The notes under the pieces are model-generated. The model was not told the DNA's origin, ran no database searches, and was given only the letters and a program-made list of their open reading frames with translations. This document shows, in pieces, positions 2,202 to 13,763 of a DNA stretch of 64,000 bases. The stretch's first letter is position 1. Every line of letters starts with the position of its first letter. The position numbers were made by a program, and so were the translations under genes. Source of the DNA: Thiomonas delicata (GTDB lineage Bacteria; Pseudomonadota; Gammaproteobacteria; Burkholderiales; Burkholderiaceae_C); the NCBI RefSeq assembly GCF_900088825.1, contig NZ_LT592170.1, positions 1,620,109-1,684,108 of the forward strand. Reading direction: 5' to 3'.

Positions 2202-4496
2202 ATGATTCGCACGCATACCCTGGGCTACCCCCGCATCGGCCCGAAACGGGAGTGGAAGTTCGCGCTCGAGGCGTTCTGGGCCGGCAAGAGCAGCGAGGCC
2301 GAACTCGCCGGCAGCTGGCGCGCCCTGCGCCTGCAGCAATGGGACGACCAGCGCCAGGCCGGGCTGGACATGGTGACAGCCGGCGATTTCGCGCCCTACG
2401 ACCACATCGCCGCGATGACCCTGCGCCTGGGCGCGGCCCCGGCCCGTTTCGGCTTCGAGCCGGGGCAGTCGCGCTGGGCGCGGCATTTCGCGCTGGCGCG
2501 CGGCACGTCCAGCCAGCCGGCGCTGGAACTCACCAAGTGGTTCGACACCAACTACCACTACCTCGTGCCCGAACTCGACCCTGCCACTCGCTTCGCGCCC
2601 GACGCGCAGGATCTGCTGGACGAGCTGGCACTGGCGCGCGAGCGGGGCTTGGCCGCCAAGCCTGTGCTGCCCGGCCCGCTGACCTGGCTGTGGCTGAGCA
2701 AGAGCCGCGCCCAGGGATTCGACCGCCTCGCGCTCCTGCCGGCGCTGCTCGACGCCTACGTGCGGATCCTGCGCCCCTTGCATGCCGCGGGCGCCGCATG
2801 GGTGCAGCTGGACGAGCCCATTCTGGCCCTTGACCTGCCCGACGTCTGGAAGGACGCCATGCGCGCCGCCTATGCCCAGCTTGCCGGCACCCTCGGTGCG
2901 CAGCAAGGCACAGCAGGCCTCAAGCTGCTGGTGGCCACTTACTTCGGCCCGCTGGAAGACAACCTCGACCTGGCTTGCGGGCTGCCGGTTGCCGGCTTGC
3001 ACGTGGACCTGGTGCGCGGTCTGGGCGAAGCCGCCTGGGTGGCCGAGCGCTTGGGCGCGGACAAAGTGCTGTCGGCCGGCGTCATCGACGGTCGCAACGT
3101 CTGGCGCGACGACCTCGATGCCGCACTCGCCCTGCTGCGCGGCCTGCGCAGCCGCGGCGGCGAACTGTGGATCGCGCCGTCGTGCTCGCTGCTGCACGTG
3201 CCGGTGGACCTGGACGCCGAGGATGAACTGCCGCAGCCGTTCAAGGGCGGCATGGCCTTCGCCCGGCAGAAACTGGGCGAATTGCAATGGCTGGCGCAAG
3301 CCCTGCGCGAGGGCGATGCGCTCAGTCCCGCCACCGCCACCGCGCTGCAGGCCAGCCGCGCCGCGCGCGCCAACCGCCTGGCCGACGCGCGCATGCGCCG
3401 TGCCGAGCTGCGCGCGCGCATCGCCGCCCTGCCGTGCGACCAGCGCGCCAGCGGTTATGCGGCGCGCGCCGCGCGGCAGCGGGCGCGCTTCGCCTTGCCG
3501 CTGCTGCCCACCACCACCATCGGCTCGTTCCCGCAAACCGCCGACATCCGTGCCGCACGCGCCGCGTTCAAGCGCGGCGAGATCGACCTTGCCGCGTACG
3601 AACGCCGCATGCGCGAGGCCATTTCCCTGGCGGTGCGCAAGCAGGAGGAACTGGGTCTGGACGTGCTGGTGCACGGCGAGGCCGAGCGCAACGACATGGT
3701 CGAATATTTCGGCGAGCAGCTTGAAGGCGTGCTGTTCACCCGATACGGCTGGGTGCAGAGCTACGGCTCGCGTTGCGTCAAGCCGCCGGTGATTTTCGGC
3801 GACGTGCTGCGTCCCAAACCCATGACCGTGCAGTGGAGCGCCTACGCCCAGGGTCTGACGCAAAAGCCGATGAAGGGCATGCTCACCGGCCCCGTCACCC
3901 TGCTGCAATGGGCCTTCGTGCGCGACGACCTGCCGCGCAGCGAAGTGGCCCTGCAACTGGCCCTGGCGGTGCGCGACGAGGTGCAAGACCTGGAGGCCGC
4001 CGGCATCGGCATGATCCAGATCGACGAACCCGCCTTCCGCGAAGGCCTGCCGCTGCGCCAGCGCAACTGGCAGGCCTACCTGGACTGGGCCGGCCGCGCC
4101 TTCCGCCTGTCGGCCAGCGGCGTGCGCGACGACACCCAGATCCACACCCATATGTGCTACTCGGAGTTCAACGACATCATGCCGGCCATCGCCGCGCTGG
4201 ACGCCGACGTCATCTCCATCGAGACCAGCCGCTCCGATATGGAACTGCTGCAAGCCTTCGGCGCGTTCCAGTACCCGAATGAAATCGGCCCCGGCGTGTG
4301 GGACATCCACTCCCCGCGCGTGCCCGACCAGGCCGAGATGGAGCGCCTGCTGCGCAAGGCGTTGGACGTGATTCCCGCCGAGCGCCTGTGGGTGAATCCG
4401 GACTGCGGCCTGAAAACCCGCGGCTGGGCGGAAACCGAGGCCGCGCTGGCCCACCTGGTGTCGGCGGCGAAGGCGGTGCGGGCCGGTACGGTCTAG
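2202..4496 (+). CDS. metE: cobalamin-independent methionine synthase
   Basis: A 764-residue 5-methyltetrahydropteroyltriglutamate-homocysteine methyltransferase, close to the usual length (about 755). It transfers the methyl group of methyl-THF-triglutamate to homocysteine in the cytoplasm. The zinc-binding quartet is complete: H650 and C652 in [11 protein letters not shown]674 in SIETSRSD and C735 in [11 protein letters not shown], each nine positions after the E. coli residues. The N-terminal half contains the expected duplicated barrel (LGYPRIG near the start). The start is supported by GAGGA seven bases upstream. Its stop overlaps by four bases the stop of the convergent TfoX-like gene. 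Confidence 0.97.
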
Positions 4497-4834
4497 GGCC
4501 GGGTCTGCCCGGCTTGGCAGGCCGCCGCACAAGCCAGTTCCACCCAGTTGCGCATGGCCTCCGGGTCTTCGAACACCTCGGGCGGGGCCTCGAAATACGG
4601 CAGGGCCACGGTCTTGCCGCGCGCCACGTAGGTGAAGGGCGCCAGGCCCCGGGCCTCGAACGCGCTGCGGGTGACGGCGTCCGCCTTCAAATAGAGTCGT
4701 CCGTCGGTGAGGATGGCGAACATGCGCGTGTCTTGGTCGATGCCGTGGCCGCCGAACATCGCGCGCAGGCGCAGCCCGTCGACGAAGGCCATGTGCTCGG
4801 TGACGAACTGGGCGAAGGTGTCGTTGCGGCGCAT
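4493..4834 (-). CDS. TfoX N-terminal-domain protein
   Basis: A 113-residue protein with the TfoX-N signature: [22 protein letters not shown], then GRLYLKAD, F-x4-LAPFTYV and a C-terminal [14 protein letters not shown] helix. In gammaproteobacteria TfoX/Sxy drives competence gene expression with CRP, but stand-alone TfoX-N proteins of this size are common and mostly uncharacterised. The C-terminal TfoX domain is missing, so a competence role should not be assumed. The ATG at 4834 begins right before the conserved region. Confidence 0.8.
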
Positions 4835-4998
4835 GATCGGACCTTCAGGCGTGGTGCCGGGCAACGCCATCGAACGGGCCGACCACGAAGGGCGCGGGCG
4901 TTCCGTGACGCGCGAGAACGGGCACGGACGCGGCAAACGGCTTTGCGGTGCGGGGGCGTGTCGGGGCGTGCATGGTTCTCTTTCTCGCCCGGCCGGAT

Positions 4999-5397
4999 TC
5001 ACGCTGCCGGGCGGGCCTCATGGAATTCGGGCAGGCCGTCGGCAAGACGTACCCAGGGCAAGCGGCTGCAGGTGTGGGTGTGGTCCTTGGGCGGGAGCAG
5101 CGTAGGGTCGTCGAGGCTGCAGGTGGTGAGGTCGACCAGGTCAGGCGCGTCGTCATGCGCAAAGGTCAGTTGGGTGCCGCAGCGGGAGCAAAAACCACGC
5201 ACGGCTTTCGCGCTGGAGCGGAACTGCGCTGGCAGGCCCTCCACGAAGCGCAGCGCGGATCGCGCCACGCTGAACCAGGCCACGAACGGCGCTCCTGCAG
5301 CGCGGCGGCACATCGTGCAGTGGCAAATCGTCTGGTGCGTAACCGGGCCCGTGGCTTCGTAACGAATGGCACCGCATAAACAACCACCTTTGAGCAT
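4999..5397 (-). CDS. GFA-family (CENP-V/GFA domain) zinc protein
   Basis: A 132-residue protein of the glutathione-dependent formaldehyde-activating-enzyme fold. Three cysteine pairs that bind zinc are visible: GGCLCGAIRYE, TICHCTMCRR and GFCSRCGTQLTF. The spacing fits the GFA family, whose founding member condenses formaldehyde with glutathione; most stand-alone relatives have no proven reaction. The start at 5397 (MLKGGCLCG) places the first Cys pair at residues 6-8 as usual in the family. A 164-base gap without a gene separates it from the TfoX-like gene downstream. Confidence 0.85.
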   Translation of the reverse strand: MLKGGCLCGAIRYEATGPVTHQTICHCTMCRRAAGAPFVAWFSVARSALRFVEGLPAQFRSSAKAVRGFCSRCGTQLTFAHDDAPDLVDLTTCSLDDPTLLPPKDHTHTCSRLPWVRLADGLPEFHEARPAA

Positions 5398-5775
5398 GAC
5401 CGTTTTCCTTTCTCGGCGATTCGCGCGGCGCGGGCACAAGCCGCCATCAGGCGCTCCGGCAGGGCCTCGCGCGCGCTCGGAGTTCGCCGATAGGCTCGCG
5501 CGCGATCTGGAAATCGGCCGTGTCTTCGCCGGCTCGGCTGCGCCGAGCCTTCCTGCTGCCGAGGCCGAAGCGCGCTTCAGTGTAGGCCATGGGAATCGAG
5601 GCTTGTGCGGTGATGATGCGTCGCGAATCGTCGGGGCGGTAGAGGCCCTGGGCGCCGAAACGCGGCGTCGTCAGCGCCGTGGACGACTGCCCATGCGACG
5701 GCCTGGCGGCCAACTTTCGTATAGTGGCCGTGCATGAAGGCCGCAGCGGCACTTCATCACCAAGGAGGAGACAAC
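5398..5775. other. intergenic, no supported gene
   Basis: About 380 bases between the divergent GFA and Rossmann genes. A minus-strand frame exists here, but it has no recognisable family, no ribosome binding site and arginine-rich shadow-like composition. The only clear element is the strong AAGGAGGAG ribosome binding site at 5762-5770 for the next gene. Confidence 0.4.
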
Positions 5776-6156
5776 ATGATGCAAACACAACGCGTGGCCA
5801 TCGTCGGGCTTGGACGGGTGGGTTCGGTGTTTCTGGATGCGCTGCTCAAGCAGCAGGGCAAGGCCCTGGATATCGTGGCGGTCGCGGAGTCCAGCCCGAC
5901 GCCCGGCCTTGCCATGGCGCAAAGCCGCGGAATTCCGGTGCTGGCGCTGCCCGAAATCCTGCAGCGCTGTGCGGAGATCGACATCGTTTTCGACCTGACC
6001 GGGGTTGCCACGGTGCGCCGCGAGTTGCGCGACGGTTTGGCGGCCACGAACAACCGGCATACGGTCATTGCCCCGGAAAGCGTCGCGCATTTGCTGTGGT
6101 CGCTGCTGGCGCCGGGCGTCGACCTTCCGCAAGTGCATGCGCAGTCAGGGTACTGA
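5776..6156 (+). CDS. small stand-alone Rossmann-fold NAD(P)-binding protein
   Basis: A 126-residue protein beginning MQTQRVAIVGLGRVGSVFLDALL, a beta-alpha-beta dinucleotide-binding fingerprint (GxGxxG). It continues with a second Rossmann strand (IVAVAES), PVLALPEILQ and IDIVFDLTGV, as in the N-terminal halves of homoserine or aspartate dehydrogenases and Gfo/Idh oxidoreductases. There is no catalytic domain after it, so it looks like a cofactor-binding or regulatory module rather than a full enzyme. The start is fixed by AAGGAGGAG with five bases of spacing. Function unknown. Confidence 0.75.
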   Translation: MMQTQRVAIVGLGRVGSVFLDALLKQQGKALDIVAVAESSPTPGLAMAQSRGIPVLALPEILQRCAEIDIVFDLTGVATVRRELRDGLAATNNRHTVIAPESVAHLLWSLLAPGVDLPQVHAQSGY

Positions 6157-6172
6157 GCACGGCGGCGTCTGG

Positions 6173-6207
6173 CGGCGGATCTTGGGCCGGATCAGCCGGA
6201 TCCGCCG
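6173..6207. terminator. hairpin between convergent genes
   Basis: CGGCGGATC at 6173-6181 pairs exactly with GATCCGCCG at 6199-6207 around a 17-nt loop that can itself fold. It lies between the stops of the plus-strand Rossmann gene and minus-strand galE. Only a short CTTTCC follows, so termination is plausible but not certain. Confidence 0.4.
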
Positions 6208-8087: not shown

Positions 8088-8163
8088 TGGTGGGGGCACA
8101 GGGACTCGAACCCAGGACCTACTGATTAAGAGTCAGCTGCTCTACCAACTGAGCTATACCCCC
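8088..8163 (-). tRNA. tRNA-Lys (anticodon CTT), CCA encoded
   Basis: The minus strand folds as a full cloverleaf. The acceptor stem is GGGGGTA with TGCCCCC, the D-loop is AGCTCAGTTGGTAGAGC, and the anticodon arm is GCTGA-CTCTTAA-TCAGT with anticodon CTT. The T-arm is CCTGG-GTTCGAG-TCC-like and a genomic CCA follows. It decodes AAG. A second tRNA-Lys (TTT) lies upstream on the same strand at 13688-13763; the two formed a tandem pair before transposon insertion. Confidence 0.97.
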
Positions 8164-8288: not shown

Positions 8289-8296
8289 AAGAAAAA
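8289..8296. repeat. 8-bp target-site duplication, left copy
   Basis: AAGAAAAA is repeated exactly at 13639-13646. An 8-bp duplication is what IS1595-family elements generate. The original sequence was the T-tract of the terminator of tRNA-Lys(TTT). Confidence 0.85.
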
Positions 8297-8322
8297 CGCG
8301 TTGTTATACTTGACGTACCCAA
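8297..8322 (+). repeat. left terminal inverted repeat of the IS1595-family transposon
   Basis: Starts CGCGTTGTTATAC and ends TTGACGTACCCAA. It matches the reverse complement of 13613-13638 at 23 of 26 positions, with the inner 13 bases identical. Confidence 0.88.
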
Positions 8323-8682
8323 CATGATCGCCGATACTTCGCATACCCAAGCGAGGAAATCATGAGCGAATCAATCCTTTCCCAACCGTTCTTCCACAAC
8401 GAAGAAGCCGCTTACGAGTTCGTCGAATCGCGTCTGTGGCCGAACGGTGCCGTCTGTCCGCACTGCGGTGAAATTGGCCGCGCGAATAAGCTGCAAGGAA
8501 AGTCCACCCGCATCGGAACTTGGAAGTGCTACGGCTGCCGCAAGCCCTTTACGGTGAAGGTTGGCACCATCTTTGAGGCAAGCCACATCAAGATGCACCT
8601 GTGGCTGCAAGCCATCTTCCTCATTGCCTCTAGCAAGAAGGGCTGAACCGCCCCGGGTTTCGTGGAGGCTAGTTGGTTTAAG

Positions 8683-9588
8683 TCATGCCGGAATGGCGTG
8701 TTGACTGGCTTGTTGGCGCCAGTAGTTTGCCTCAGCTTCTGCCGGAGGGATACCCCCAATCGGTTTGAGCAGTCGGGTGTGGTTGAACCAGTGCACCCAT
8801 TGCAGGGTGGCCAGTTCGACGGCTTCCCTGGTTTTCCAGGGTCCGCGGCGGTGAATCAATTCGGCCTTATACAGCCCGTTGATGGTCTCGGCCAGGGCGT
8901 TGTCATAGGAGTCTCCTTTGCTGCCCACGGAGGGCTGGATGCCTGCCTGCGCCAAGCGTTCGGTGTACTTGACGCTGACGTATTGCACGCCTCTGTCCGA
9001 ATGGTGGACCAAGGCATGGGCAGCGGGCCGACGCGCGTACAAAGCCTGCTCCAGCGCGTCCATCACGAAATCGGTCTGCATGGATGTGCTCACGCGCCAG
9101 CCCACGATGCGTCGGGCAAACACGTCGATGACGAACGCCACGTACAGCCAGCCCTGCCAGGTGCTCACATAGGTGAAGTCCGACACCCAGAGCTGGTTGG
9201 GTCGCTCGGCTTTGAACACCCGGTTGACGTGGTCCTGCGGACACGGCGTGCAAGTGTCGGGGACCGTGGTTCGCACCTTCTTGCTCCGCCGCGCACCCTG
9301 CAGCCCCAGGCGTTTCATCAGCCGCTCGACCGTGCAGCGCGCCACCCGGTTGCCCTCGCGGTTCATCTGCAACCAAACCTTGTCAGCTCCATACACCTGC
9401 CAGTTGGCGTGCCACACACGCTGGATGTCGGCAGCCAGCGCATCGTCGCGCTGAGCACGGGCGCTGCGCAACTCGGGGTTGCGATGACGCGCGGCATGGC
9501 GCCAGTAACACGACGGGGCCATCTGCAGCACTTTGCAGATGGGCTCGACCCCGTGCATGGGGCGGTGCTGGTCGATGAATCGCTTCAA
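8683..9588 (-). CDS. IS3-family transposase OrfB (copy 1)
   Basis: A 301-residue rve-type integrase-core protein, initiated at TTG or, more likely, made as an OrfAB fusion by -1 frameshifting on a T6 run (complement of 9622-9627). The DDE residues appear in [20 protein letters not shown] and [18 protein letters not shown], and an HTH_21-like [14 protein letters not shown] segment lies near the N-terminus. The translation is identical to copy 2. The element looks intact and therefore potentially active. Confidence 0.93.
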
Positions 9589-9908
9589 CTCTTCAAACGG
9601 CGGTCGAGCTCCGCCTGGGCGAAAAAAGCACTCGCCGCTTTGAGGATGTCATTGGCCCGGCGCAATTCCTTGTTCTCGCGCTCGAGTTGTTTGAGGCGTT
9701 CACGCTCGCTGCTCGTCAGGCCGTCGCGCTGGCCTGTATCGACTTCCTCGCGCTTGACCCACTCCAGCAGCGTCTGTGGCACGCAGCCAATCTTGGGGGC
9801 CATGGATTCGACTGCGGCCCACAGCGAGGGGTACTCGCCTCGGTGCTCCTGCACCATGCGTACCGCGCGCTCGCGCACTTCGGGGGAAAACTTGTTCGTC
9901 TTGTTCAT
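9585..9908 (-). CDS. IS3-family OrfA (copy 1)
   Basis: A 107-residue DNA-binding subunit. The N-terminal helix-turn-helix ([18 protein letters not shown], then [14 protein letters not shown]) is followed by a leucine-zipper-like segment ([20 protein letters not shown]) used for multimerisation. The T6 frameshift window lies near its 3' end, where OrfA protein continues as [10 protein letters not shown] while the -1 frame leads into OrfB. Confidence 0.93.
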
Positions 9909-10638
9909 GGCTCCATCTTCTCAAAGGTTGGAGCCTCCTCAAAACCCGGGGCGGTTCAGGCATCAGCAGCAACCAGCTTCACCGTACCTTGGGCATCACT
10001 CTCAAGTCAGCATGGTTCATGTCGCACCGCATCCGCGAGGCGATGCGCGAGAACGGTTTCGACGTGTTCGGGTTGGAAGGCGGAGATGTGGAAGTGGATG
10101 AAACCTTCATCGGGCACGACAAAACGATCAAGCCCAAGGGCGAGAAGCGTGGCCGGGGCTATCACCACAAGAACAAAGTGCTGTCCCTCGTAGATCGCAA
10201 GTCCGGGAAGGCTCGTTCCATGGTGATCGACGATGTGAAGGCTTCGACGATCATGCCGATCCTTCAAGCGAACATCTCCCGTGAGGCGCGCATCCTGACC
10301 GACGAAGCAGGGCAGTACGTCCACGTCGGAAAGGTCTTCGATGGCGGCCACGCGTTCACGCGCCACGGCGCTGGTGAATACGTATCGTCGGACGACGCTA
10401 CCGTGCACACTAACACCATCGAAGGATTCTTCTCGGTGTTCAAACGCGGCATGAAGGGTGTGTACCAACATTGCGGGCACAACCATCTGCATCGCTATCT
10501 TGCAGAGTATGATCATCGTTACAACCATCGCAAGGCGCTAGGGTTCAATGACTTCGAGCGCGCCGAAGCGGTCCTCAAAGGCGTGAGTTGAACCGCCCCG
10601 GGTTTTGAGGAGGCTCCAACCTTTGAGAAGATGGAGCC

Positions 10639-10962
10639 ATGAACAAGACGAACAAGTTTTCCCCCGAAGTGCGCGAGCGCGCGGTACGCATGGTGCAGGA
10701 GCACCGAGGCGAGTACCCCTCGCTGTGGGCCGCAGTCGAATCCATGGCCCCCAAGATTGGCTGCGTGCCACAGACGCTGCTGGAGTGGGTCAAGCGCGAG
10801 GAAGTCGATACAGGCCAGCGCGACGGCCTGACGAGCAGCGAGCGTGAACGCCTCAAACAACTCGAGCGCGAGAACAAGGAATTGCGCCGGGCCAATGACA
10901 TCCTCAAAGCGGCGAGTGCTTTTTTCGCCCAGGCGGAGCTCGACCGCCGTTTGAAGAGTTGA
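10639..10962 (+). CDS. IS3-family OrfA (copy 2)
   Basis: Same 107-residue helix-turn-helix and leucine-zipper protein as copy 1. A run of six T at 10920-10925 precedes the stop. In the -1 frame the sequence stays open ([19 protein letters not shown]) and joins OrfB without interruption, the classic IS3 programmed frameshift layout. Confidence 0.93.
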
Positions 10963-11864
10963 AGCGATTCATCGACCAGCACCGCCCCATGCACGGGGTC
11001 GAGCCCATCTGCAAAGTGCTGCAGATGGCCCCGTCGTGTTACTGGCGCCATGCCGCGCGTCATCGCAACCCCGAGTTGCGCAGCGCCCGTGCTCAGCGCG
11101 ACGATGCGCTGGCTGCCGACATCCAGCGTGTGTGGCACGCCAACTGGCAGGTGTATGGAGCTGACAAGGTTTGGTTGCAGATGAACCGCGAGGGCAACCG
11201 GGTGGCGCGCTGCACGGTCGAGCGGCTGATGAAACGCCTGGGGCTGCAGGGTGCGCGGCGGAGCAAGAAGGTGCGAACCACGGTCCCCGACACTTGCACG
11301 CCGTGTCCGCAGGACCACGTCAACCGGGTGTTCAAAGCCGAGCGACCCAACCAGCTCTGGGTGTCGGACTTCACCTATGTGAGCACCTGGCAGGGCTGGC
11401 TGTACGTGGCGTTCGTCATCGACGTGTTTGCCCGACGCATCGTGGGCTGGCGCGTGAGCACATCCATGCAGACCGATTTCGTGATGGACGCGCTGGAGCA
11501 GGCTTTGTACGCGCGTCGGCCCGCTGCCCATGCCTTGGTCCACCATTCGGACAGAGGCGTGCAATACGTCAGCGTCAAGTACACCGAACGCTTGGCGCAG
11601 GCAGGCATCCAGCCCTCCGTGGGCAGCAAAGGAGACTCCTATGACAACGCCCTGGCCGAGACCATCAACGGGCTGTATAAGGCCGAATTGATTCACCGCC
11701 GCGGACCCTGGAAAACCAGGGAAGCCGTCGAACTGGCCACCCTGCAATGGGTGCACTGGTTCAACCACACCCGACTGCTCAAACCGATTGGGGGTATCCC
11801 TCCGGCAGAAGCTGAGGCAAACTACTGGCGCCAACAAGCCAGTCAACACGCCATTCCGGCATGA
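10959..11864 (+). CDS. IS3-family transposase OrfB (copy 2)
   Basis: Same 301-residue DDE transposase as copy 1. The only nearby initiation codon is a TTG overlapping the OrfA stop (TTGA), so the functional product is most likely the OrfAB fusion starting at 10639. All catalytic residues are present. Confidence 0.93.
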
Positions 11865-11967
11865 CTTAAACCAACTAGCCTCCACGAAACCCGGGGCGGT
11901 TCAAGTGGCAAGCGCCTCACGTATCAAAGAACTCACTGAGGAGTTCGCGCACCGCAAGCGAGAGCGT

Positions 11968-12153
11968 ATGACCAAGCCGAAAACGAAGGCGGACGATACG
12001 GAGCAATCGAGGCGCTTCCTAGAAGCCGCCAAAGAGCTTGAAGCCGACGAATCTGGCGCCAAGTTTGATAGGGCTGTTCAGCCGTTGGTCCTCGCCAACG
12101 CAAAGAGACCGCCACCCGAATCCGGAGTGGCGGCCAAGAAGACTAAGGGCTAG
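11968..12153 (+). CDS. 61-aa transposon passenger protein, unknown function
   Basis: Starts MTKPKTKADDTEQSRRFLEAAKELEADES 28 bases after the transposase stop. The protein is hydrophilic, with a helical EQSRRFLEAAKEL segment and a basic, proline-rich tail (NAKRPPPESGVAAKKTKG). I recall similar short proteins next to transposases of this family, but I cannot name a function. It is probably cotranscribed with the transposase; copy 2 of the IS3 element now separates it from that promoter. AGCGAGAG upstream is a weak ribosome binding site. Confidence 0.65.
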   Translation: MTKPKTKADDTEQSRRFLEAAKELEADESGAKFDRAVQPLVLANAKRPPPESGVAAKKTKG

Positions 12154-12191
12154 ACTTTCTGCCCTATGGACGAGCGGCTGCTCTGAAGGGT

Positions 12192-12341
12192 TTATCCCTT
12201 ATCGACCCGGACTAGGAGCGGGAATGCCCGCTTCCCAATTTGGGACGCATAGAGCTTCTGGCCGTTCTTGAGGGTGATCCAGGCTCGGAACACCACGGTG
12301 TAGCCCTCAGGAATCGGGAATCCGAAGTTCAGTTGCTTCAT
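12192..12341 (-). CDS. 49-aa passenger protein on the opposite strand
   Basis: A short gene, MKQLNFGFPIPEGYTVVFR and on to FPLLVRVDKG, transcribed against the other passengers. It is preceded by AAGGAGGTG (complement of 12348-12356), an essentially perfect anti-16S match at good spacing, which makes translation very likely. A second ATG nearer the ribosome binding site (12347) gives only a 12-codon frame. The sequence reads like a small beta-rich domain (YTVVFRAWITLKNG-KLYA). No function is known to me. The palindrome GCCGTCATGACGGC at 12360-12373 sits just upstream and may control it. Confidence 0.68.
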   Translation of the reverse strand: MKQLNFGFPIPEGYTVVFRAWITLKNGQKLYASQIGKRAFPLLVRVDKG

Positions 12342-12359
12342 CCATATCACCTCCTTTCT

Positions 12360-12373
12360 GCCGTCATGACGGC
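12360..12373. promoter_or_regulatory. perfect 14-bp palindrome upstream of the 49-aa gene
   Basis: GCCGTCATGACGGC is exactly self-complementary and lies immediately 5' of the strong ribosome binding site of the minus-strand 49-aa gene. It could be a repressor operator or a leader hairpin. Assignment is by position only. Confidence 0.4.
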
Positions 12374-12418
12374 GGTTAGGTGTTGAAAAGGGTCAGCCGC
12401 TCGGCTGTGCCCGCCTGG

Positions 12419-12473
12419 AGCCTTCGTAGCGTCTATCCGCCAAGATCATGCGCTACGAAGGCTTTCCTTTTTC
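12419..12473 (+). terminator. hairpin with T-rich tail inside the transposon
   Basis: AGCCTTCGTAGCG (12419-12431) pairs perfectly with CGCTACGAAGGCT (12451-12463) over a 19-nt loop, followed by TTCCTTTTT. It would end plus-strand transcription from the transposase and 61-aa gene before the 314-aa gene. Confidence 0.6.
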
Positions 12474-12559
12474 CGCCCCGGTTACGGCAGGCTCATCACC
12501 GGGGCCGAGTCATCTCCTCATCGATTTTCCCTCCTTCAGGCGCATTGTCTCCTATTGGA

Positions 12560-12588
12560 TTGTCTTGTCAAGTCCGTCGTGATAGGAT
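12560..12588 (+). promoter_or_regulatory. candidate promoter of the 314-aa passenger gene
   Basis: TTGTCT (12560-12565) and TAGGAT (12583-12588) are separated by 17 bases. Each matches its sigma-70 hexamer at four of six positions. It lies 31 bases before the ATG and just after the internal terminator, which makes an independent promoter plausible. Confidence 0.35.
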
Positions 12589-12619
12589 TCCCGTAAATGC
12601 ACCAATCCAGGAGGGCAGC

Positions 12620-13564
12620 ATGGCACCCGATTCTGATAGCAAAGACGATGTCGCGAGCAAGATCGCGCGTGATCGTAGTCCGTCCTTCCCCTTCATTTCG
12701 TTGAAGGCCGCAGTTGACCGGTTGGTTGCGCTTGAAGGAAAGTTTGGGCGTCACCCGGCTCCAGCGGAGAAGGTGGGGCTCGCGTGGAGCATGAAGGAAA
12801 AGAGCAGTCAAGCGTTCCAAACACTAGCTGCTCTCAAGGCCTATGGTCTCGTCGAGTACCAGGGCTCAAACAAGGATCGGCAAGCTATGCTGACCGATGA
12901 TGCACGGACGTACCTTCGCGCACAGCAACAAGAGATCAAAGCGGGCGTTCTGAAATCCTGCGCTCTGCGTCCTAAGGCGCTTGCTACCTACTGGAAGCAA
13001 TGGGGGGCTGATCGTCCAATTGACGAAGTTTGCTTGGATCAACTCGTCATCAAGGACGGCTTTACGCAGTCTGCTGCCGCCACTTTCTTGCGCGTTTATG
13101 ACGACACTATCGACTTCGCGGGCTTGAGTGGAGGAGATGGAGAGACTAGGATTGGTGACAAGGATGATGCGCTCGTGGCTGAGACCAACCGAGAAGATTC
13201 TTCCGATCGGCAGGTGAAGATCGGAGACTTCGTGTGCTGGGAACTGAATGGCGTCATCCAATTCGCGGCAAAGCGAGTCGTTGGCTTGTCGCCCGATGGT
13301 ATGTTTGCATTCGTAGAGGGCAGTTCGACCGGACTGTCCATCAAGGAGTTAATAGTGGTTTCTGCCCCGCCCAACGCGCCCTCAGGAGCGCACCCGAGCC
13401 CTCCCTCGCCGCCCCCTGGCGCCGGGCTAAAGCAGGATACTTTCAGCCTAGACGAGGGTACCGTCGTACTTCAATGGCCCTCTTCTCTGAGCCAAGAGAG
13501 CTATGACGACTTCAAAGATTGGATCGACCTTCAATTGCGAAAGATCAAGCGATCGATCCAATAA
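12620..13564 (+). CDS. 314-aa passenger protein with winged-helix-like N-terminus
   Basis: The largest passenger. Residues about 20-105 (FPFISLKAAVDRLVALEGKF, VGLAWSMKEKSSQAFQTLAALKAYGLVEYQG, MLTDDARTYL) read as a winged helix with the spacing of a DNA-binding or replication-associated domain. A middle helical part is followed by IGDFVCWELNGVIQFAAKRVVGLSPDG, a small beta-barrel-like segment. After a Pro-rich linker (APPNAPSGAHPSPPSPPPGAG) comes the tail VVLQWPSSLSQESYDDFKDWIDLQLRKIKR, a motif I know from many phage- and island-borne hypothetical proteins. Start chosen by AGGAGGG at 12609-12615. Function unknown; a transposon-encoded regulator or accessory protein is a guess. Confidence 0.78.
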   Translation: MAPDSDSKDDVASKIARDRSPSFPFISLKAAVDRLVALEGKFGRHPAPAEKVGLAWSMKEKSSQAFQTLAALKAYGLVEYQGSNKDRQAMLTDDARTYLRAQQQEIKAGVLKSCALRPKALATYWKQWGADRPIDEVCLDQLVIKDGFTQSAAATFLRVYDDTIDFAGLSGGDGETRIGDKDDALVAETNREDSSDRQVKIGDFVCWELNGVIQFAAKRVVGLSPDGMFAFVEGSSTGLSIKELIVVSAPPNAPSGAHPSPPSPPPGAGLKQDTFSLDEGTVVLQWPSSLSQESYDDFKDWIDLQLRKIKRSIQ

Positions 13565-13581
13565 GGAATGAAGATCAAGGA

Positions 13582-13606
13582 GGGCCGCTAGCAGCGGCCC
13601 TTTTTT
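13582..13606 (+). terminator. intrinsic terminator of the 314-aa passenger gene
   Basis: GGGCCGCT (13582-13589) pairs with AGCGGCCC (13593-13600) over a 3-nt loop, followed by six T. It starts 17 bases after the stop codon. Confidence 0.9.
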
Positions 13607-13612
13607 CATCCA

Positions 13613-13638
13613 TTGGGTACGTCAAATACAACACCGCG
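13613..13638 (-). repeat. right terminal inverted repeat of the IS1595-family transposon
   Basis: Read inward on the minus strand it starts CGCGGTGTTGTAT and ends TTGACGTACCCAA, matching the left end (8297-8322) at 23 of 26 bases. Confidence 0.88.
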
Positions 13639-13646
13639 AAGAAAAA
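13639..13646. repeat. 8-bp target-site duplication, right copy
   Basis: AAGAAAAA, identical to 8289-8296. It overlaps the A-tract (T-tract on the minus strand) of the tRNA-Lys(TTT) terminator. Confidence 0.85.
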
Positions 13647-13687: not shown

Positions 13688-13763
13688 TGGTGGGTCGTGC
13701 GTGACTCGAACACGCGACCAACGGATTAAAAGTCCGCTGCTCTACCGACTGAGCTAACGACCC
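13688..13763 (-). tRNA. tRNA-Lys (anticodon TTT), CCA encoded
   Basis: The minus strand folds with acceptor stem GGGTCGT/ACGACCC-type pairing, D-arm AGCTCAGTCGGTAGAGC, anticodon arm GCGGA-CTTTTAA-TCCGT (anticodon TTT), T-loop TTCGAGT and genomic CCA. It decodes AAA and AAG. Removing the transposon would place it about 170 bases upstream of tRNA-Lys(CTT). Confidence 0.97.

Follow-up and report, generated by a model that had tools for sequence, protein, structure and literature searches.

Positions 8297-13638 of the 64,000-nucleotide stretch of Thiomonas delicata DNA analyzed here (contig NZ_LT592170.1, positions 1,620,109 to 1,684,108, forward strand; hereafter the window) hold an element that we consider likely to be an IS1595-family insertion sequence (IS) of the “transporter IS” (tIS) kind: about 2.7 kb long, broken by IS3-family insertions, and carrying a regulated cargo of two genes, P4 and P5, that is shared across transposase families. 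As a transposon it is ordinary, a decayed passenger-carrying member of the IS1595 family and of a known kind. What is unusual is not the bearing of cargo, which is known for IS1595 elements, but the occurrence of this cargo, a structured RNA with P4 and P5, on two transposase families.

The boundaries proposed by a first-pass annotation of this DNA, with 26-bp terminal inverted repeats complementary at 23 of 26 positions and an exact 8-bp duplication, hold. A blind scan for an inverted repeat plus 8-bp duplication around the transposase start returned these ends as its sole pair. They scored 19/22 with an exact duplication; a score of 15 or more was reached by none of 300 Markov-1 shuffles and by 2 of 92 other window anchors (17 and 15), and by both controls the terminal pair is beyond chance. 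The element is single copy in its own genome, where its left 347 bases occur once. Its ends, transposase gene and insertions are as follows:

8289-8296, no strand: left 8-bp target duplication AAGAAAAA (read from the sequence and end scan)
8297-8322, + strand: left terminal inverted repeat, 26 bp (repeat comparison and end scan)
8362-8643, + strand: IS1595 transposase gene, first piece (zinc ribbon; P0002; PF12760)
8641-8643 and 9959-9961: 3-bp duplication GGC of IS3 copy 1 (read from the sequence)
8644-9958, − strand: IS3-family copy 1 (orfA 9585-9908, orfB 8683-9588)
9962-10588, + strand: IS1595 transposase gene, second piece (DDE domain; P0003; PF12762)
10586-10588 and 11904-11906: 3-bp duplication AGT of IS3 copy 2 (read from the sequence)
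10589-11903, + strand: IS3-family copy 2, inverted (orfA 10639-10962, orfB 10959-11864)
11907-11939, + strand: IS1595 transposase gene, last codons and stop (read from the sequence)
13613-13638, − strand: right terminal inverted repeat, 26 bp (repeat comparison and end scan)
13639-13646, no strand: right copy of the 8-bp target duplication AAGAAAAA (within the T tract of the hairpin that follows tRNA-Lys(TTT))

The gene called an ISXO2-type transposase in the first-pass annotation does have IS1595 domains but is not intact, being found in three pieces. The zinc ribbon PF12760 scored 47.7 bits on the first piece (cut-off, 25.4), where the NCBIfam zinc-domain model NF050000 stayed below threshold (10.9 bits; cut-off, 28), and DDE_Tnp_IS1595 was found on the second piece by both PF12762 (107.9 bits; cut-off, 27) and NF033547 (151.8 bits; cut-off, 75). 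The element has the 8-bp target duplication given for the IS1595 family in PMC8101967. In place of the family's single uninterrupted transposase gene it has one with two interruptions, as a decayed copy of a member. Both interruptions had been missed: about half of the 5.3 kb consists of two later IS3 insertions, each of 1,315 bp, opposed, 100% complementary to each other, and lying within the transposase gene. They encode IS3-family OrfA and OrfB (OrfA scoring below its NCBIfam cut-off) and contain the ALIL frameshift pseudoknot identified by Rfam search. Subtracting the two copies and their 3-bp duplications leaves an element proper of 2,706 bp. The same genome contains 11 or more full-length copies of this IS3-family IS that are identical (a lower bound, from scoring 40 of the 89 initial candidates), which points to a recent spread of the IS in which two copies landed in one gene. 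With its transposase gene broken twice, the element is probably immobile by its own enzyme. The genome has three more IS1595 transposase genes (131.7 bits each), which belong to a plain element with unrelated ends, so no helper is evident, although this falls short of proof; rescue by another transposase of the genome was rejected on the same ground, the ends of the candidates being unrelated to those of the element. The plain element is present in three copies (L078-L080) of ~1.09 kb, with ends near GGGGTATCCACTTAGCTCCAGTGA.

Two identical, inverted IS3 copies could themselves be the moving ends of a composite transposon with IS1595 sequence as its cargo. We judge this highly improbable: a separate 3-bp duplication bounds each copy (GGC for one, AGT for the other) and the transposase frame runs in the same direction on either side, both of which fit two independent insertions, while nothing but the central part of the transposase gene lies between the copies. 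It is the IS1595 ends that the outer 8-bp duplication flanks, and no target duplication is shared outside the IS3 pair.

Three non-IS genes inside the element, reported in the first-pass annotation, were confirmed at 61 amino acids (aa; + strand), 49 aa (− strand), and 314 aa (+ strand), and the cargo frames are intact:

11968-12153, + strand: P6, 61-aa small protein
12192-12341, − strand: P4, 49-aa cargo gene
12342-12512, − strand: structured RNA immediately 5′ of P4; the P4 ribosome-binding site is paired in its final helix
12620-13564, + strand: P5, 314-aa cargo protein (N half winged-helix-like, middle rich in beta structure, C end a beta-beta-helix)
13582-13606 (approximate), + strand: terminator-like hairpin and T run 3′ of P5 (read from the sequence)

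The case for a cargo shared between transposase families rests first on the distribution of P5. Relatives of P5 were found by profile at 19 loci, window included. An IS1595 transposase or remnant lies near P5 in the window, L007, L019, and L068, and an IS1 transposase or remnant in L013, L017, L018, and L067 (for L017, L018, and L067 the IS1 assignment is by Pfam above cut-off, with NCBIfam below its own cut-off, IS1 being its best match in L018 and L067). Ends with exact duplications delimit the IS1-type elements L013, L018 (19/22), L067 (20/22), and L017 (17/22, the weakest); in the control, 2 of 180 anchors reached 17 and none 19, and none of 400 shuffles reached 15. In a tree of 15 rows (L069-L072 and L010 left out; 8 of 12 inner branches open), the window P5 paired with the IS1-borne copy of genome G894 (47% identity; support, 100/100) and was distant from the IS1595-borne Devosia copy (22% identity). 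As the nearest of the copies compared is IS1 borne, two transposase families carry related cargo. L067 (G894) and L018 (Caenimonas soli) thus share P5 with the window at 47% and 35% identity, respectively, and L018 additionally shares P4 and the RNA, whereas both differ from the window in their IS1-type transposase and in their ends, GGTRGTGTCTCAGTTTG. The IS1-type element of L018 also contains, at 3420-4337, a 306-aa gene without a Pfam match that may encode a proteasome-type hydrolase.

P5 was matched in 1 of 72,556 plasmid records (weakly, at 24% identity) and at 1 locus in viral contigs. A3 was found in 1 of 33 genomes within the order of G894, namely, G894 itself. L010, a weak P5 match (3.9e-5) not recovered by the P5 profile, was excluded from the counts. 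Neither P4 nor P5 had a significant domain match in Pfam, NCBIfam, PHROGs, or PADLOC, and P5 had nothing significant among PDB sequences. An AlphaFold2 model of P5 from an alignment of 10 (mean pLDDT, 76.9; pTM, 0.49; residues 21-170 mostly near 90) predicts a helical N half, modeled confidently and winged-helix-like in its order, then a beta region and a beta-beta-helix at the C terminus. Many winged-helix regulators (MarR, ArsR, AspA, and others), along with methyltransferases and ribosomal proteins, were among the 50 Foldseek matches listed of 785 at E≤10.

The second line of evidence is the RNA. The 171-nucleotide (nt) leader of P4 is alignable with the leaders in genome G054 and in Caenimonas, and a covariance model was built from these three loci. 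Between the window and G054, identity was 68.8% for the leader, 80.0% for P4 coding DNA, and 50.6% for P5 coding DNA; a 34-base core, helix 1 plus flank, keeps 33 of 34 bases. Of the 399 genomes searched in the family, 10 had a match to the model (E≤0.01), including the window's own, G054, and 8 further genomes, 6 of which were examined for ~1.5 kb on each side of the match (G199 and G002, the weakest, were left out). Related cargo or transposase genes flank the RNA in four of these six loci (L086, L087, L088, and L090): P5-like genes in the first three, an IS1595 transposase in L086 and L087, element ends in one, and a P4-like gene immediately after the RNA in L088 and L090. Since no protein was used in the RNA search, these neighbors are independent support. 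None of the known neighbors lies within ~1.5 kb of the matches in L089 (51.2 bits) and L091 (44.9 bits); this RNA may also serve other host genes.

Pairing holds in 90.6% of cells over nine loci, and both sides have changed in 34 of the 47 pairs, including 12 of 13 in helix 2. Covariation was 0.465, compared with 0.156 on shuffling and no more than 0.072 on sliding, and none of 500 shuffles reached the real value, to be read with the facts that the alignment was fitted to the model, that three of its nine rows built the model, and that relatedness can exceed shuffles. Compensatory change has kept the RNA fold. Rfam had no family at gathering threshold over 12342-12512 (best below it, PK-repBA, 25.2 of 45 bits), and a blastn search of the leader against plasmids gave no match. 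The RNA core was absent from viral contigs when searched as a 29-base pattern, and a 25-base pattern that tolerated one mismatch occurred in 1 of 378 genomes, the window's own. Across 27 sources searched with the model, strong matches were limited to its three members; many P5 loci are therefore without the RNA.

How far this RNA regulates is less certain. It may instead be a terminator for the other strand joined to the ribosome-binding-site region of P4, devoid of a regulatory role; we hold this doubtful while taking it seriously, as a T-rich stretch follows helix 2 on the + strand and terminators likewise keep pairing while their sequence changes. Such a reading accounts poorly for the near-identity of helix 1 and its flank between the window and G054 while P5 coding DNA has diverged to half identity, for helix 6, which pairs the P4 ribosome-binding site, and for L087, whose match (model positions 6-94) includes helices 1 and 2 and not the final part of the structure. 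It is also conceivable, and we offer it tentatively as something short of an even prospect, that the RNA, P4, and the winged-helix P5 form a portable module present in at least two transposase families, in which the RNA would control P4 and the module would serve transposon or host as a regulatory switch; the RNA would then represent a new family tied to mobile elements. A role for P4 and P5 as a toxin-antitoxin or other addiction pair seems unlikely. It is suggested by the cargo of relatives, which includes genes for PIN (L054 and L056), NYN (L019), and PIN-like, DUF433, and PemK-like (G006) proteins, and by the adjacency of P4 and P5 in the window, L007, L018, and L088. Against it, the two genes are divergent and not an operon, P5 occurs without a profile-detected P4 in L013, L014, L067, and others, and the domain searches above lent the pair no support.

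Several observations weigh against our preferred explanation of a tIS with a regulated, shared P4-P5 cargo. P5 also occurs without an IS1 or IS1595 transposase: only 8 of the 19 profile loci have either transposase or a remnant nearby (several of those without one stop at contig ends), and full ends with exact duplications delimit 6 of 19. Most P5 loci lack the RNA, the whole leader is less identical than P4 coding DNA, and part of the leader could be a plain terminator, given the T-rich stretch that helix 2 has on the opposite strand. No listed Foldseek match of P5 was at E≤0.001, and the ends of the window element were not found in L007-L010 (best, 16/26). The functions of the RNA, P4, and P5 and the activity of the element are predictions from sequence.

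Under the preferred explanation, the element would have transposed in the past by its own IS1595 enzyme, landing in the T tract of the tRNA-Lys(TTT) terminator; an IS3 element active in the genome would later have hit the transposase gene twice, leaving the element unable to move by that enzyme. The RNA fold would hold the P4 ribosome-binding site in a helix and so keep P4 translation low until it opens, and P5 would bind DNA as a small regulator. The occurrence of P5 relatives on both IS1595 and IS1 elements, and of P4 and the RNA on the IS1-type L018, suggests that the cargo has passed between the transposase families. The RNA offers a handle on the regulation of cargo by small transposons without obvious host benefit, and its model is usable as a search query in any genome.

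Nine IS1595 relatives were scanned for ends (L019, L053-L057, L068, G091 [L081], and G006 [L082]); seven have inverted repeats and an 8-bp duplication, at 1,869-3,758 bp, with inner ends that are mostly TACTTGAC..AC, and none were obtained for L055 and L068:

Devosia L019, 3,223 bp: like ends and 8-bp duplication
Pseudosulfitobacter L053, 1,869 bp: duplication with one mismatch
Methylobacterium L054, 3,413 bp: like ends and 8-bp duplication
Roseomonas L056, 2,604 bp: like ends and 8-bp duplication
Mesorhizobium L057, 2,509 bp: like ends and 8-bp duplication
G091, 3,758 bp: like ends and 8-bp duplication
G006, 3,027 bp: like ends and 8-bp duplication

An eighth such element, L086 of G208 (19-2661; 2,643 bp; ends, 18/22; 8-bp duplication), was found via the RNA. 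The loci L009, L016, L021, and L072 were outside the scan for ends and duplications, and L007 was inspected by eye alone. Elements of the ISNha5 group measure 3.45-7.9 kb. P4 and P5 lie within the ends, as passengers of a tIS do, and are presumably unrelated to transposition. IS1 and IS1595 tISs with passengers are described in PMC8496243, PMC3129680, and PMC11891212, and the last of these describes ISNha5 as an IS1595-family element with a transcription-regulator passenger. With the published IS1595-family tISs, of which ISNha5 is a named example, the window element shares a transposase with zinc ribbon and DDE_Tnp_IS1595 domain, 8-bp duplications, and passenger genes that include a regulator-like one; it is distinguished by its two IS3 interruptions and by a cargo of P4, P5, P6, and the RNA. 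Given this known kind and seven of nine relatives with like ends (1.9-3.8 kb), the first-pass suggestion of an undescribed transposon type was not borne out. Like ends around a transposase alone, named there as evidence that would tell against it, were nearly seen once: L053 has only the transposase and an annotated 46-aa P6-like gene.

Cargo differs between these elements, as is known for their kind; besides the genes named above, P63C occurs among it. Among the closest elements, L019 of Devosia geojensis (2969-6191) is like the window element in its inner ends (TTGAC..AC), 8-bp duplication, transposase, and P5-like and P6-like genes; it differs in a P5 of 22% identity and in its NYN gene, and neither P4 nor the RNA was found in it. 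L086 shares the IS1595 transposase, the P6-like and P5-like genes, the RNA, and ends with an 8-bp duplication, but its RNA follows P5, on the strand of that gene, and no P4 was found. P6-like genes occur in five of the nine relatives (L019 and L053-L056), as well as in L086, and were not found in L057, L068, G091, or G006; because it recurs among IS1595 relatives, P6 may be an accessory gene.

The element lies between two tRNA genes:

8088-8163: tRNA-Lys(CTT), flanking the element
13688-13763: tRNA-Lys(TTT), flanking the element

The duplication places the insertion site in the T tract of the terminator hairpin behind tRNA-Lys(TTT); congener G521 has a similar terminator without the element. 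Of 28 genomes from the genus, only the window's own was found to contain the passenger DNA. The first-pass annotation had also named passenger genes at the same place in relatives, without the repeats, as evidence that would tell against its reading; this was examined in part, and with passenger DNA in none of the 27 other genomes searched there is no hint of an old resident at the site. Insertion into terminators as a general rule was rejected: five other delimited elements were folded, and none had, by eye, a clear terminator at its site. The targets of other delimited elements are mostly A+T rich. In G054 (L007, ~8630-8680), a decayed IS1595 element that carries P4 and P5 as a pair seems, by eye, to end in a terminator T tract; the strand of its transposase remnant relative to P5 is opposite to the window arrangement. 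The two tRNA-Lys genes are 4.7 kb apart in G544, compared with 3.2 kb in G522, and the DNA beside tRNA-Lys(TTT) in congener G544 (L046) encodes what we take to be the end of a tyrosine integrase; with these differing gaps and the integrase-like end, the place looks like an integration hot spot.

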